Assembly (NCBI RefSeq): GCF_006974145.1
Contig: NZ_CP039456.1
Coordinates: forward strand, 1,208,001-1,272,000
Source of the DNA: Changchengzhania lutea
GTDB taxonomy: Bacteria > Bacteroidota > Bacteroidia > Flavobacteriales > Flavobacteriaceae
DNA length: 64,000 nucleotides
Direction: 5' to 3'
The notes beneath the pieces were generated by a model, which was not told where the DNA came from, did no database searches, and saw only the letters and a list, made by a program, of their open reading frames with translations. A program made the position numbers and the translations under genes. Below are positions 25,283 through 59,380 of this stretch, in pieces (position 1 is the first letter of the stretch; every line of letters begins with the position of its first letter).

Positions 25283-28200
25283 TTAGCCTACAATATTCAC
25301 AATTTTACCCGGAACCACAATCACCTTTTTAGGGGTTCTCCCTTGCAATTGTTCTTTGGTCTTGTCATGCGCCATTACAGCAGCCTCAACATCGTCCTTA
25401 CTCATATCCAATGGCAATTCCATGGTGAAACGCATTTTACCATTGAATGAAATCGGGTAGTTTTTACTACTTTCTACTAAATGACTGGCATCAAATTCTG
25501 GAAACGGGGCGGTTGAAATAGATTCCTCATGCCCTAACTGGTTCCATAATTCCTCAGCGATATGCGGGGCGTATGGCGACAACACAATCAGCAAGGGTTC
25601 TAAAATATCCTTGCTTGTACATTTTTGAGCGGTTAATTCATTAACAGCAATCATAAAAGTAGACACCGATGTATTAAACGAAAAGTTCTCAATATCTTCC
25701 TGTACCTTTTTAATGGTTTTATGAAGTGTTTTAAGAGCCTCCCCTAACCCCTCCGAAGGAGGGGAACCTGTTACGTGAAATGCTCCGTTTTCGCCTTGGT
25801 GGTATAGTTTCCATAATTTTTTAAGGAAGTTATGCACGCCTGTAATACCCGCCGTATTCCAAGGCTTGTATTGTTCTAATGGACCGAGGAACATTTCGTA
25901 TAAACGTAAACTGTCTGCGCCGTAATCTGAAACAATGTCATCTGGGTTAACGACGTTTAACTTAGATTTTGACATCTTTTCAACATCTCTACCAACTTTA
26001 TAGACGTCATTATCGCTTTCAATAATTTCCCCTTGCTCTCCTATGAAAATAGCTTCCTTATAATCTTTCCCAAACTCACTATCTGCTTTTAAGGCTTCAA
26101 TGTCTAATTCATCTGAGGAATTAACATATTGAACTTTCACATGAATTGGATTTATCCCAATACTCAATTGCTCATACGATTGTTCCTCTCCTTTATTTTG
26201 ATGAATCTCTTTTAATCTTGTCTTTATTAATTTAATATCAAAATTTTCTCCTGCCCCAATACTATTCGAAACATATACGGTAATTCCCATTGTACCTAAA
26301 ACACGATAAACATAAGCACTAGTCCCCAAAATCATCCCTTGGTTAATTAGCTTTTTAGCAAACTCATCTACAGGTACTTCACCTCTATCAAACAAAAACT
26401 TTTGCCAAAATCGCGCATACAATAAATGTCCTGTGGCATGCTCGCTACCGCCTATGTATAAATCGACGTCTTTCCAATAGTTAAGCGCTTCTTTACTTGC
26501 GTATGCTTCGGTATTGTGGGCGTCCATATAGCGGTTAAAATACCACGAACTTCCTGCCCAACCTGGCATAGTGTTCAATTCTAAAGTCCCACCTAGCCTC
26601 CCCGAAGGGGAGGAATTCTCAAACTCCTCTTTAGATACAATGTCTGCTGTATCTCCATATTGCAACCAATACCATTTTTTGGCATTACCTAGCGGGGGCT
26701 CGCCCGTTTCGGTTGGTAAATATTTTTCTACTTCTGGTAATTTTATGGGTAAGTGTTCTGCATCAATCATCTGTGGCATCCCATTTATGTAATATACAGG
26801 AAAGGGTTCGCCCCAATAGCGTTGGCGCGAAAAGACCGCATCCCGCAAACGGTAATTGGTTTTTCCTTCTCCCTGACCCATTTTTTCTAACTCGTAAATA
26901 GCACGTTTGGTCGCTTTTTTATAGGTCATGCCGTTTAGAAAATCGCTATTCGCAATAATGGTTTTTCCCTTATCTGAAAAGGCTTCTTCAGAAATATCGA
27001 CCCCTTCAAAAATATTCGGAATCGGAATATTAAAATGTTTGGCAAACGCATAATCTCTTTCATCGCCGCATGGTACAGACATCACTGCGCCTGTGCCGTA
27101 GCCTGCCAATACATAATCGCCAATCCAAATTGGAATAGGTTCTTTTGTAAACGGATGTTCTACATAGGCCCCTGTAAACACACCTGAAATGGTTTTAACA
27201 TCTGCCATTCTATCGCGTTCGCTGCGTTTTGCGGTGGCTTCAATATACGTTTCAACCTCAGCTTTTTGGTCGGGAGTGGTTATTTGAGAAATGAGCTCGT
27301 GTTCTGGAGCAAGCGTCATGAAGGACACTCCGAAAATGGTGTCTGGGCGGGTTGTAAATACTTCAATCCCCCTAGCCCCCGAAGGGGGAATTTGCTCACT
27401 CATGTGTGAATCACTTTTAACTGATTCTCTTTGAGATAATTCTTTAATTATTTTTTCTAAAACACTATCTATATCTACTAAGGCTTCTTCATTTTTAAAC
27501 CGTATAACTTTGTAGCCATCATTTTCAAGAATCTCTGTTCTTTTGGTATCTTCTTCAACTTGAGATTCGTGAATTTTCCCATCAACTTCAATAATTAATC
27601 GTTTTCTTAAACACACAAAATCGACAATATAATCACCTACTAAATGCTGTTGTCTAAACTTAGCATTCAATTTTTTATTTCTAAGTTGTTCCCACAATGC
27701 AGCTTCTGCCTGAGTAGGATTAGCGCGCATATCTTTAGCTCTTTCAATCAGCAAATGCGAATTATTACCACCGGTCATATATCCAGCCCGATTATCAGAG
27801 CCTGATTTCGCTTCCCCGTTGGGGAAGGATAGGATGGGGAAAGTCACACTCGCACCAACAGATTTACCAATCCAGTTTCGCTGGCTCTCCTTTAAAGCAT
27901 CGGTCCAATCTATGGTATCCAAGCCTTGCAGTAAACGTTCTGCATAGGCAGAAATGCGCATGCTCCACTGCGTCATTTTTTTACGAATTACGGGATGACC
28001 ACCACGTTCGGAAAGGCCATTTACTATTTCATCATTCGCTAAAACGGTTCCTAATGCTGGGCACCAGTTTACTTCGGTTTCTGCTAAATAGGTTAATCGG
28101 TATTGCAGTAATATTTCTTGTTGTTTTTCAGATGAAAATGAATTCCAATCATCTGCTGAAAATGCATTAATATTATCATCACAAACGGCATTCACTTTCC

Positions 28201-28708
28201 CATTACCTGCTTTTTCAAAAACATAAATTAAGGTTTCAATGTCTTCAGCTTTGTCAGAATCTTTATTATACCAAGAATTGAATAATTGAATAAAAATCCA
28301 CTGCGTCCATTTATAGTAACTCGGGTCTGAAGTACGCACTTCACGAGACCAATCGAATGAAAAACCAATTTGGTCTAATTGACGGCGATAGGTTTTAATA
28401 TTTTCGACAGTTGTAATGGCAGGATGTTGCCCAGTTTGAATCGCATACTGTTCTGCTGGCAGACCAAAACTATCATAGCCTTGTGGATGCAATACGTTAA
28501 ACCCTTTATGGCGTTTGTAACGTGCATAAATATCTGAAGCAATATAGCCTAAAGGATGGCCAACGTGTAAGCCTGCACCGCTAGGATAAGGGAACATATC
28601 CAACACATAATATTTTGGCTTTTCACTCCCATTAACAGCTTTGAAGGTCTGGTTTTCTGCCCAATACTTTTGCCAGTCTTTTTCTATTCTCCCGAAATCG
28701 TATTTCAT
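25283..28708 (-). CDS. leuS: Leucyl-tRNA synthetase with DUF559 and palindromic-repeat insertions
   Basis: Charges tRNA-Leu. At 1141 residues it is about 200 longer than a usual bacterial LeuRS. The HIGH-type HVGH is at 48-51 (PYPSGAGLHVGH), the editing-domain entry FTTRPDTIFG is near 445, and KMSKS is at 911-915. Three expansions break the usual order. (1) Residues ~295-440, just before the editing domain, hold a DUF559 nuclease-like domain. (2) Residues ~697-707 (SSPSGRLGG) are a read-through palindromic repeat. (3) Residues ~980-990 (SPPSEGLGEA) are another. Residues ~805-850 are also longer than expected. The frame is open throughout, and all synthetase motifs are intact, so the enzyme is probably functional. 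No second leuS is in this window. Confidence 0.93.
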   Translation of the reverse strand: MKYDFGRIEKDWQKYWAENQTFKAVNGSEKPKYYVLDMFPYPSGAGLHVGHPLGYIASDIYARYKRHKGFNVLHPQGYDSFGLPAEQYAIQTGQHPAITTVENIKTYRRQLDQIGFSFDWSREVRTSDPSYYKWTQWIFIQLFNSWYNKDSDKAEDIETLIYVFEKAGNGKVNAVCDDNINAFSADDWNSFSSEKQQEILLQYRLTYLAETEVNWCPALGTVLANDEIVNGLSERGGHPVIRKKMTQWSMRISAYAERLLQGLDTIDWTDALKESQRNWIGKSVGASVTFPILSFPNGEAKSGSDNRAGYMTGGNNSHLLIERAKDMRANPTQAEAALWEQLRNKKLNAKFRQQHLVGDYIVDFVCLRKRLIIEVDGKIHESQVEEDTKRTEILENDGYKVIRFKNEEALVDIDSVLEKIIKELSQRESVKSDSHMSEQIPPSGARGIEVFTTRPDTIFGVSFMTLAPEHELISQITTPDQKAEVETYIEATAKRSERDRMADVKTISGVFTGAYVEHPFTKEPIPIWIGDYVLAGYGTGAVMSVPCGDERDYAFAKHFNIPIPNIFEGVDISEEAFSDKGKTIIANSDFLNGMTYKKATKRAIYELEKMGQGEGKTNYRLRDAVFSRQRYWGEPFPVYYINGMPQMIDAEHLPIKLPEVEKYLPTETGEPPLGNAKKWYWLQYGDTADIVSKEEFENSSPSGRLGGTLELNTMPGWAGSSWYFNRYMDAHNTEAYASKEALNYWKDVDLYIGGSEHATGHLLYARFWQKFLFDRGEVPVDEFAKKLINQGMILGTSAYVYRVLGTMGITVYVSNSIGAGENFDIKLIKTRLKEIHQNKGEEQSYEQLSIGINPIHVKVQYVNSSDELDIEALKADSEFGKDYKEAIFIGEQGEIIESDNDVYKVGRDVEKMSKSKLNVVNPDDIVSDYGADSLRLYEMFLGPLEQYKPWNTAGITGVHNFLKKLWKLYHQGENGAFHVTGSPPSEGLGEALKTLHKTIKKVQEDIENFSFNTSVSTFMIAVNELTAQKCTSKDILEPLLIVLSPYAPHIAEELWNQLGHEESISTAPFPEFDASHLVESSKNYPISFNGKMRFTMELPLDMSKDDVEAAVMAHDKTKEQLQGRTPKKVIVVPGKIVNIVG
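25748..25764. repeat. C-rich palindromic repeat, in frame in leuS (copy 1)
   Basis: cccctccgaaggagggg is a perfect 7-bp stem with a GAA loop, preceded by cctcccctaa. It is nearly identical to the intergenic copy at 49552-49568. Translated on the minus strand as SPPSEGLGEA (residues ~980-990). Confidence 0.85.
26597..26613. repeat. C-rich palindromic repeat, in frame in leuS (copy 2)
   Basis: cctccccgaaggggagg with 'ctag' before it. Translated as NSSPSGRLGGT (residues ~697-707). Same architecture as copy 1: C-rich arm, GAA loop, G-rich arm. Confidence 0.8.
27376..27388. repeat. C-rich palindromic repeat bounding the DUF559 insert (gene-3' side)
   Basis: cccccgaaggggg, preceded by ccccctag. 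It lies just 3' (in gene direction) of the DUF559 coding segment and is translated as IPPSGARGI. Confidence 0.8.
27435..27780 (-). other. DUF559 (Vsr-like nuclease) domain inserted in LeuRS
   Basis: Residues ~311-424 of the LeuRS reading frame. It begins MTGGNNSHLLIERAKDMRAN, then NPTQAEAALWEQLRNKKL, FRQQHLVGDYIVDFVC and LIIEVDGKIH, ending in YKVIRFKNEE. This is a whole DUF559 domain, with the Asp (VDF) and Glu-x-Asp (IEVDG) of the PD-(D/E)xK/Vsr-like active site intact. Stand-alone DUF559 proteins of about this length, starting at the equivalent Met, are common in Bacteroidota. The segment is bounded by inverted C-rich palindromes, which suggests acquisition as a unit. Confidence 0.85.
27811..27839. 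repeat. C-rich palindromic repeat bounding the DUF559 insert (gene-5' side, inverted)
   Basis: cttccccgttggggaag (27811-27827) followed by gataggatgggg. This is the same element in the opposite orientation to the copy at 27376, so the DUF559 segment lies between inverted copies. Confidence 0.75.
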
Positions 28709-49539: not shown

Positions 49540-49551
49540 TTCCTCTCCCAG

Positions 49552-49568
49552 CCCCTCCGAAGGAGGGG
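49552..49568. repeat. C-rich palindromic repeat (intergenic copy)
   Basis: cccctccgaaggagggg after cctctcccag. The same element as the copies read through in leuS. It lies between two convergent genes and may act as a terminator hairpin. Confidence 0.85.
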
Positions 49569-58909: not shown

Positions 58910-59380
58910 ATGTCTTATAAAGAACCCAAAATAAAAGTACCCCGGTTTAACGAAGCCTCAGGTTTTTACACCACAAAAAAGCGCTCAAAAATCATGAGCA
59001 AAATTAGGGGTAAGAACACAAAACCAGAACTGCTTTTTCGTAGGGCCTTATGGAAACATAATGTACGCTATCGTGTCAACAACAAATTGATACCAGGAAA
59101 ACCAGATGTTTCTATCCAAAAATATAAGCTTGCCATTTTCATTGATGGTGAATTTTGGCATGGTTATAATTGGGAAGAACGAAAAACCAAACTTAAATCC
59201 AATCGGGATTTCTGGATTCCTAAAATTAAGCGAAACATGCAACGGGACAGAGAGGTGAATTTAGAATTGACCCATTTGGGCTACACGGTCTTTCGGTTTT
59301 GGGCAACCGAAATTAACAATGATTTAAACCGTTGCATCAATGATGTTTTGGTTTTTATTGCTACTGGAGAAAATAATTGA
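58910..59380 (+). CDS. vsr: Very-short-patch (Vsr) mismatch endonuclease, orphan
   Basis: 156 residues. IMSKIRGKNTKPELLFRRAL (about 29-48), PGKPDVSI (Asp66), FIDGEFWHGY (Asp79, His84) and FRFWATEI near 142-149 are the Vsr hallmarks. Vsr nicks T-G mismatches arising from 5-methylcytosine deamination, normally beside a Dcm-type methyltransferase. No methyltransferase gene is in this window. Probably an accessory gene left after loss of, or carried independent of, its modification partner. Confidence 0.9.
   Translation: MSYKEPKIKVPRFNEASGFYTTKKRSKIMSKIRGKNTKPELLFRRALWKHNVRYRVNNKLIPGKPDVSIQKYKLAIFIDGEFWHGYNWEERKTKLKSNRDFWIPKIKRNMQRDREVNLELTHLGYTVFRFWATEINNDLNRCINDVLVFIATGENN

Follow-up and report, generated by a model that had tools for sequence, protein, structure and literature searches.

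A DUF559 nuclease frame between inverted palindromes inside leucyl-tRNA synthetase: a putative mobile element with triplex-like ends

The inserted unit in leuS

The DNA analysed here (the window) is a stretch of 64,000 nucleotides from Changchengzhania lutea (Flavobacteriaceae; contig NZ_CP039456.1, positions 1,208,001 to 1,272,000), in which leuS, the gene of leucyl-tRNA synthetase (LeuRS), contains an in-frame nuclease unit bounded by inverted palindromes. We denote the genome of the window (one 4.13-Mb contig) as G000, the genomes of relatives by other G numbers and individual loci by L numbers. The leuS gene occupies window positions 25283–28708 on the minus strand as one open frame of 1141 amino acids. 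The inserted unit (27368–27839, minus strand; 472 bp) corresponds to LeuRS residues ~290–447 and is open throughout. It contains a DUF559 (PF04480) nuclease domain (27437–27745, minus strand; residues 322–424, E 2.9e-36 in the Pfam scan), in which the catalytic D, E and D are intact and the active-site segments VDF and IEVDG complete; the editing domain (PF13603, residues 446–605) lies directly C-terminal of it. The unit protein (27425–27784, minus strand) has the N-terminal motif GYMTGGNNSHLL and is related to the same part of embedded units in other host genes. An earlier inspection of the letters alone (the sequence-only reading) had described such a domain, in frame before the editing domain, with an intact active site and with C-rich palindromes of opposite orientation at both ends. 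All of this was borne out, and outward G-rich tails as well as two solo motifs in leuS can now be added.

At the end that lies on the N-terminal side in the protein (end 1; 27811–27839, plus strand), the palindrome CTTCCCC-GTT-GGGGAAG is followed by gatag and the outward tail GATGGGG, and is translated as FPILSFPNGE. The C-terminal end (end 2; 27368–27388, minus strand) consists of the palindrome CCCCC-TTC-GGGGG and the outward tail CTAGGGGG, translated as PPSGARG; read by eye on the minus strand, it runs CCCCC ttc GGGGG cta GGGGG. Because its stem has 5 pairs, end 2 is missing from stem scans that require at least 6, and it is covered by a match (G000:C1:1235364-1235392, minus strand, E 0.042) to R1, a covariance model of palindrome plus tail. 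The two ends are inverted relative to each other, with their G-rich tails facing outward. Solo motifs of the same family occur in frame at two further places in leuS, at 26587–26613 (minus strand; translated SSPSGRLGG), directly before ELNTMPGWAGSS, and at 25738–25764 (minus strand; SPPSEGLGEAL). In other genera, the site before ELNTMPGWAGSS holds a whole DUF559 unit. In a structure model of LeuRS residues 212–635 (mean predicted local distance difference test score, pLDDT, 70.7), the linkers encoded by the palindromes score below 50, and are thus probably flexible.

Two circumstances that might have undermined the insertion were also considered in the sequence-only reading. The insert is not an assembly join, because DUF559 inserts occupy the same loop in 12 other genera of the family draw, and no second, normal leuS was found, a single LeuRS match being present at E<=1e-100 in the single-contig 4.13-Mb genome.

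Empty sites, other hosts and the MetH pair

By DUF559 matches and reading of frames, an insert in this LeuRS loop was detected in 13 of 149 family genomes, a count that decayed inserts below the E limit of the DUF559 search would escape; a repeat-free domain shared by all relatives, the sign of an old domain, is therefore not what is observed. Ten of these inserts are intact; the active site is degenerate in two (G113 and G002), and one (G112) carries a frameshift. The inserts of G113 and G002 (L059, L060), which share a long branch in the unit tree, look like decayed or domesticated units, and in G112 (L058/L119), a draft genome, the LeuRS frame is broken inside the DUF559 domain, through either a real loss or a sequencing error. 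DUF559 was present in none of 39 other LeuRS that were read, these being taken from the best LeuRS matches rather than at random and leaving 97 of the 149 outside the reading. Most of the 39 have a short hairpin loop such as VTFNVNDHDAVIDVFTTRPDT at the site. The empty site predicted for relatives thus exists at leuS, as it does at recG (see below). The same loop, before FTTRPDT (L080–L118), holds other, unrelated repeat peptides of the HAELVEAPQ, SERHSELDSESH and IQNSEFRI types in other genera, and is therefore a general landing place.

On a LeuRS tree computed with the insert columns excluded, occupancy changed at least 9 times among 52 genomes, and 8 of the changes are forced by well-supported branches. 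Such patchiness would at most be compatible with homing, i.e. with cutting and copying into an empty allele. Between G000 and G036, identity amounts to 0.82 in the insert and 0.81 in the host LeuRS, and fourfold sites are saturated (0.44 in insert and host alike; silent identity about 0.4). Equal divergence of insert and host in the clade of the window, together with the saturation of fourfold sites, means that the insert is strongly constrained and did not arrive recently; recent homing at leuS is not supported.

The genome of the window contains a second repeat-DUF559-repeat unit, of the kind the sequence-only reading had suggested looking for. It lies in frame in RecG, between SKLWHKG and PPHVLVMTATPIPRT, with palindromes on both flanks. 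Only 2 of the 58 family genomes with a RecG match carry this insert; it is absent from the five RecG relatives that were read, four of which show SKLW.K...PPH[VI]LVMTATPIPRT uninterrupted, while the loop of the fifth is slightly longer. At E 1e-21 or better, the family draw contains 82 DUF559 matches, 26 of them in open frames of at least 346 amino acids.

A profile of the embedded units (A1) was then searched against 246 genomes of the order and 345 of the phylum (the draws overlap), and against a collection holding one genome per species. The latter yielded at least 553 relatives, of which the best 80 were kept ("named loci"); 73 of these 80 lie in frames longer than 230 amino acids. The nearest named relatives of the LeuRS unit, among the matches listed, belong to Marixanthotalea, Hyunsoonleella and Winogradskyella. 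Internal hosts are of 15 kinds, with the type ISP and PglX-like restriction-modification proteins taken together as a single kind: besides these, LeuRS, IleRS, ValRS, MetH, PurL, acetate-CoA ligase, a LegC-type aminotransferase, a CaiB-type CoA transferase, RecG, a RecB-like helicase, IcmF, HsdR, HsdM and an M23 peptidase. Three different sites are used in LeuRS, two in IleRS and two in MetH. In six further hosts (HemD, HisD, IspF, RNase H, an RlmB-like methylase and a threonine dehydratase-like enzyme) the unit lies at one end of the protein, and these cases could partly be mis-called starts. In each host group, one or a few members were named by their Pfam or NCBIfam matches and the remaining ones assigned by sequence clustering; the matches behind the names of the RecB-like, IcmF, LegC, CaiB, HsdM, PglX-like, RlmB-like, RNase H, HemD and threonine dehydratase-like hosts fall below the cut-off of the family, as interrupted proteins may do. 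In ValRS and IleRS, the units (L219, L221, L224, L237, L243) precede ATTRPET and AWTTTPW, and judging from sequence their place relative to the editing domain looks the same as in LeuRS.

A tree of 162 units, built from few columns after removal of rows that were identical, contained X or had fewer than 80 residues, requires 40 changes for its 27 host labels, as compared with a minimum of 26 and a shuffled mean of 102.8. From this, it follows that units cluster by host and yet have switched hosts. For example, Flavobacterium RecB units adjoin a Flavobacterium LeuRS unit (support 95, starred).

The clearest sign that repeat, DUF559 and repeat form one mobile unit is provided by MetH of Flavobacterium. 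At L227 and L228, a unit is located before GKILMATVKGDVHDIG while the second site, before LTLRQQ, has none; at L232, a related unit occupies this second site. The DNA of L227 and L232 aligns at 78% over 455 nt, from AGCCCCCCAACCCCCGAAGGGGG to CCCCCTTCGGGGGCGGGGGGGGCTG, i.e. over the two repeats with their tails and what they enclose, and the alignment stops short of host sequence. In this pair the inverted ends have travelled with the body, as they do in insertion sequences. MetH of L242 carries DUF559 units at both sites in one protein.

The palindromic ends and the nuclease

A C- or G-rich hairpin is found within 150 nt of 62 of the 80 named loci on any side and of 34 on both, the corresponding values for control placements (4000, in the same DNA) being 5.2% and 0.175%; in the family, a looser hairpin test (within 300 bp) was positive for 24 of 32 loci, embedded and free. 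The tail mirrors the G-rich arm of the stem. With the best of six offsets taken in data and shuffles alike, the mean mirror score was 0.941 over 72 ends, compared with 0.778 (standard deviation, sd, 0.011) after shuffling of the tails among ends (0/2000 shuffles reaching the data), and 0.914 compared with 0.748 (sd 0.020) when each arm was counted once (22 arms). In the genome of the window alone, 29 motifs, taken from the 30 best matches to a model built with tails, scored 0.970 versus 0.813 (sd 0.019; 0/2000). The tail letter opposite a stem G was G in 422 of 450 positions, and opposite a stem A it was A 59 times, T 29 times and C once. This pairing, with G facing G and either A or T facing A, corresponds to the code of the purine-motif triplex, and the unit ends display the full anatomy of a triplex motif (pyrimidine arm, purine arm and mirrored third strand). 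It is strongly suggested by these sequences that each end can fold as a purine-motif intrastrand triplex, in which the tail would join the hairpin as third strand. Of 73 embedded units, 58 have a strict version of the motif within 250 nt on any side and 32 on both (2.3% and 0% of 2920 control placements), and near embedded units it faces outward in 89 of 100 cases.

R1 has 80 matches at E<=1 in this genome. When all 80 are used, 19 neighbouring matches are less than 500 bp apart, of which 17 are inverted and have outward tails (among them one palindrome that was matched on both strands) and 2 share a strand. At E<=0.01, the inverted, outward arrangement holds for 9 of 10 (chance 3e-5 at one in four). 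Two of the 16 true pairs hold DUF559 (LeuRS and RecG), and the other 14 enclose 40–168 nt. Among 30 R1 loci examined, 13 lie in an open reading frame of at least 200 amino acids, six near a possible start and seven well inside proteins, namely in leuS, recG and genes read as icmF and hemF, so that palindromes are found in frame in protein genes in the manner of Rickettsia palindromic elements. The window contains one more solo motif of the family, outside any open reading frame of at least 200 amino acids (49542–49568, minus strand). In the IcmF-like protein (L301, G000:C1:354098-354326), two in-frame motifs lie ~170 nt apart, and IcmF of another family carries a DUF559 unit. The idea that this motif pair is a nuclease-free coding unit was dropped, the stretch between looking like a native linker (a blast comparison has no bearing on this, as the compared loci lack the region). 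At L129 (1396–3045, plus strand; G000:C1 ~1.491 Mb), a 549-aa open reading frame joins a Y1 (RAYT-like) transposase domain to a HemF-like part, with a solo triplex motif in frame within the latter and, upstream, a pair of palindromes.

Free DUF559 genes were inspected as well. In L003 (1319–1892), palindromes with a two-base loop, GTCCCCT-tg-AGGGGAC, lie on both sides of the gene; they belong to a repeat family other than the triplex type. In E. coli K-12, a triplex motif follows the 3' end of the DUF559 gene ycjD at a distance of ~175 bp, and the 5' side of the gene has none; for this one gene, chosen post hoc, the chance of a motif within 200 bp is ~0.004 if the genome has the 23 published copies. 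Twelve plasmid-borne DUF559 genes of Pseudomonadota, Deinococcota and Cyanobacteriota were hand-picked for spread from 40 loci (43 records matched; E. coli and clinical species excluded; two from one organism). Seven have the strict motif within 350 nt, and the gene of a Deinococcus proteolyticus plasmid has it on each side with tails outward; the other five have G+C-rich hairpins of at least 7 pairs nearby, 4 with C runs. The comparison here was the rest of each locus rather than a random control, and it contained no motif in 11 of 12 loci and nine in L348. Viral contigs yielded 41 DUF559 loci, the sole close relative being L259, in a ValRS-like frame. A viral origin was rejected, as this frame looks like host DNA and the strict motif was found in none of the 30 other loci tested.

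The nuclease itself belongs to the DUF559/Vsr-like group by its profile match, catalytic D and E-x-D. Of 129 embedded rows, 126 retain the catalytic D/E/D, as do all 33 free ones. A model of the unit protein (pLDDT 85.6) matches the folds of 3HRL (Z 15.5), the homing endonuclease I-Bth0305I (3R3P; Z 12.3) and Vsr (Z 10.1), and the profile match to I-Bth0305I has E 5e-7. A homing-endonuclease fold is thus predicted. A Vsr mismatch endonuclease gene, a distant relative of the unit nuclease, is located at window positions ~58910–59380 (L005 1177–1647). At L004 (1051–3132, minus strand; G000:C1 ~236 kb), a phage-like protein has a Hint-type intein that encloses a DUF559-like nuclease.

Interpretation and known systems

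We assign a probability of about 0.7 to the following explanation as a whole, steps of mechanism included: the unit would be a small mobile element, i.e. a stop-less DUF559 nuclease frame between inverted palindromes with outward mirror tails. It builds on what can be read directly from the DNA, namely the unit with its ends, its in-frame position in many unrelated proteins, relatives with empty sites, the two-site MetH units and the conserved active site. DUF559 is the presumed mover; the nuclease would be the simplest candidate because of its conserved active site, the same kind of ends and its kinship to a homing endonuclease. According to this model, the nuclease, made as part of the host protein, would recognise or cut such ends or a target, and the unit would be copied into the break by recombination or repair in a homing-like manner. 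The ends might serve as recognition structures of the nuclease, folded while the DNA is single-stranded, and a triplex would then presumably form in the cell. Surviving insertions would be those read through in frame in a tolerant loop, where the palindromes would become flexible linkers and the nuclease an extra domain of a host protein that is probably not spliced. In an essential gene, the unit would be shielded from loss, since the host protein would not survive most deletions or frameshifts. Finally, short palindrome pairs and solo palindromes might be non-autonomous derivatives or scars moved by the same enzyme.

Several observations weigh against this explanation. No target-site duplication could be shown, relatives being too diverged at the LeuRS, MetH and RecG junctions. 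The LeuRS insert is more alike than its host in merely 11 of 231 pairs, with no sign of recent homing at leuS; in G113 and G002, moreover, the palindrome peptides are not visible beside the degenerate active site, and the insert of G112 is frameshifted. Near free Bacteroidota DUF559 genes, the strict motif was detected in only 2 of 13 family loci and 4 of 7 named loci (one of the seven, L255, being from Pseudomonadota), and near DUF559 loci on viral contigs in 0 of 30, with none in their controls either. The direct, unmirrored order of the tail also scored slightly above shuffles (0.806 versus 0.769). In favour of the explanation, a DUF559 gene is present in 34 of 45 family genomes with an R1 match versus 16 of 104 without (149 genomes), and in 22 of 27 with at least 3 matches versus 28 of 122 others, but this co-occurrence is partly circular because the unit ends match the model, and the counts are uncorrected for kinship. 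Lastly, the genome has 10 Y1_Tnp matches, some broken, and Y1 transposases of this kind are linked elsewhere to repetitive extragenic palindromes (REPs).

This last point leads to an alternative that we regard as unlikely but worth keeping in view: the triplex-ended palindromes might be REP-like sequences whose movement depends on a Y1 (RAYT) transposase or some other enzyme acting in trans, with DUF559 as caught cargo. REPs flank RAYT genes in other bacteria, as described in the available text of PMC3733652 and PMC6006769. One of the Y1 matches lies in the frame that runs into the HemF-like part with its solo palindrome, downstream of a palindrome pair. However, a hairpin scan found no palindrome of the triplex family within 1.5 kb of the nine other matches (two of them in one gene), and Y1 locus L124 has a different hairpin, GCCCCT-aaa-AGGGGC, ~100 bp off. 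Palindromes do accompany DUF559 units, and DUF559 genes of other phyla, and the active site of the nuclease is retained.

Somewhat less likely still is a two-step capture, in which solo palindromes would insert in frame and a DUF559 cassette would then enter by homologous recombination between palindromes. The solo in-frame motifs would be its traces, i.e. the one at 26587 in leuS, where other genera have a full unit, and those in the genes read as IcmF and HemF; but motifs of ~30 bp, often unlike between the two ends, are short for homologous recombination, and the reverse order, a scar left after loss, accounts for solo motifs equally well.

We consider it very improbable that an old domain fusion was kept for a host or defence function and acquired palindromes at its edges later. 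The leuS insert did diverge in step with its host under strong amino-acid constraint, and several hosts are restriction or repair proteins (HsdR, HsdM, type ISP, PglX-like, RecG, RecB-like). Against this stand 15 internal host kinds, the repeated changes of occupancy on the LeuRS tree and the MetH pair, where the palindromes are common to both sites and nothing outside them is. PADLOC models gave no match for the LeuRS unit at E<=0.01 and two weak matches for the free gene L003, and a defence function was rejected. Removal of the insert by splicing or proteolysis, as an intein or cleavage domain, is scarcely credible: although the unit sits in an essential enzyme and L004 of the same genome has an intein with a related nuclease, the Pfam scan that finds the Hint domain of L004 found none in LeuRS or RecG (E<=0.001), the insertion point in LeuRS is a variable loop rather than a conserved motif, the ends code for probably flexible linkers, and the two solo in-frame motifs of the same LeuRS likewise have no means of removal.

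The sequence-only reading had envisaged a mobile unit that landed in an essential gene and is tolerated, or else spliced or cleaved out. Its first part is supported by the empty sites, RecG, the many hosts and the MetH pair, and tolerance as an extra domain fits; splicing loses ground for lack of a Hint/intein domain. The DUF559 unit, if indeed a mobile element, would reside unspliced in functional and mostly essential proteins of many hosts throughout a phylum. It would also illustrate the way in which unrelated enzymes may acquire nuclease domains, and point to protein loops that can accommodate them. A wider proposal, for which we see about even odds, is that the intrastrand-triplex repeats widespread in bacteria owe their mobility to DUF559 nucleases (YcjD in E. 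coli). Together they would make up a new class of transposable elements, mobilised by way of ends that fold into triplexes; the coding form could enter essential proteins in frame and stay there as an additional, unspliced domain, with solo and paired repeats as non-autonomous relatives. The repeats known from more than 260 bacterial genomes (PMC4666352, in the text available) would thereby obtain a candidate enzyme. The claim is directly testable, as the domain has 120 amino acids and ycjD of E. coli K-12 has such a repeat nearby. A literature search, with most subscription papers outside its reach, returned nothing on DUF559 units within proteins or on DUF559 together with triplex repeats. 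Triplex repeats, palindromes inside genes, Vsr-like homing enzymes and unspliced out-of-frame endonuclease insertions (the last as far as PMC11855218 was available) are known; what would be new is to see them combined in one element, mobile as a whole and resident, without splicing, in many essential proteins.

Among known systems, inteins and intron homing endonucleases such as I-Bth0305I (3R3P) share a related nuclease fold and residence in essential genes. The unit differs from these in its many unrelated insertion sites, its palindromic ends and the lack of a detected splicing domain.

Rickettsia palindromic elements code for a short peptide only, whereas the unit carries a nuclease with an intact active site. 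Both these elements and intragenic REPs place palindromes inside protein genes, repair genes included, as is the case here (PMC3733652, text available in part). The REPtron, a RAYT gene between REPs, likewise combines a DNA-processing gene between palindromes with non-autonomous relatives, as outlined in the accessible portions of PMC3733652 and PMC6006769. In our case, however, the gene between the palindromes is DUF559, a PD-(D/E)xK nuclease and not an HUH transposase, and a 3' mirror tail and in-frame host fusion are added. The ShiLan domain (Arsenault et al. 2025, PMC11855218, as partly available) is similar in being an endonuclease-coding insertion with no detectable splicing that leaves the host frame open. 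It differs in that its HNH enzyme is not read in the frame of the host. It was described in phage methylases, similar out-of-frame insertions being reported from other places as well, and the available text does not contain the word "palindrom", whereas palindromic ends are a feature here.

The closest counterpart of the ends is the intrastrand triplex motif (TM, or TM-ECO) of Holder et al. (2015, PMC4666352), for which the available part of the paper reports triplex formation in solution and states that mobility functions had never been found around the E. coli sites. The order of parts is the same (pyrimidine arm, loop, purine arm, second loop and purine third strand), many copies are present per genome, and inverted pairs occur in both (5 cases for TM in E. 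coli). The second loop is TTA or CCG in TM and mostly YTR here. In E. coli, TM is described there as always intergenic, whereas the motif analysed here bounds a nuclease frame and sits in frame inside proteins.

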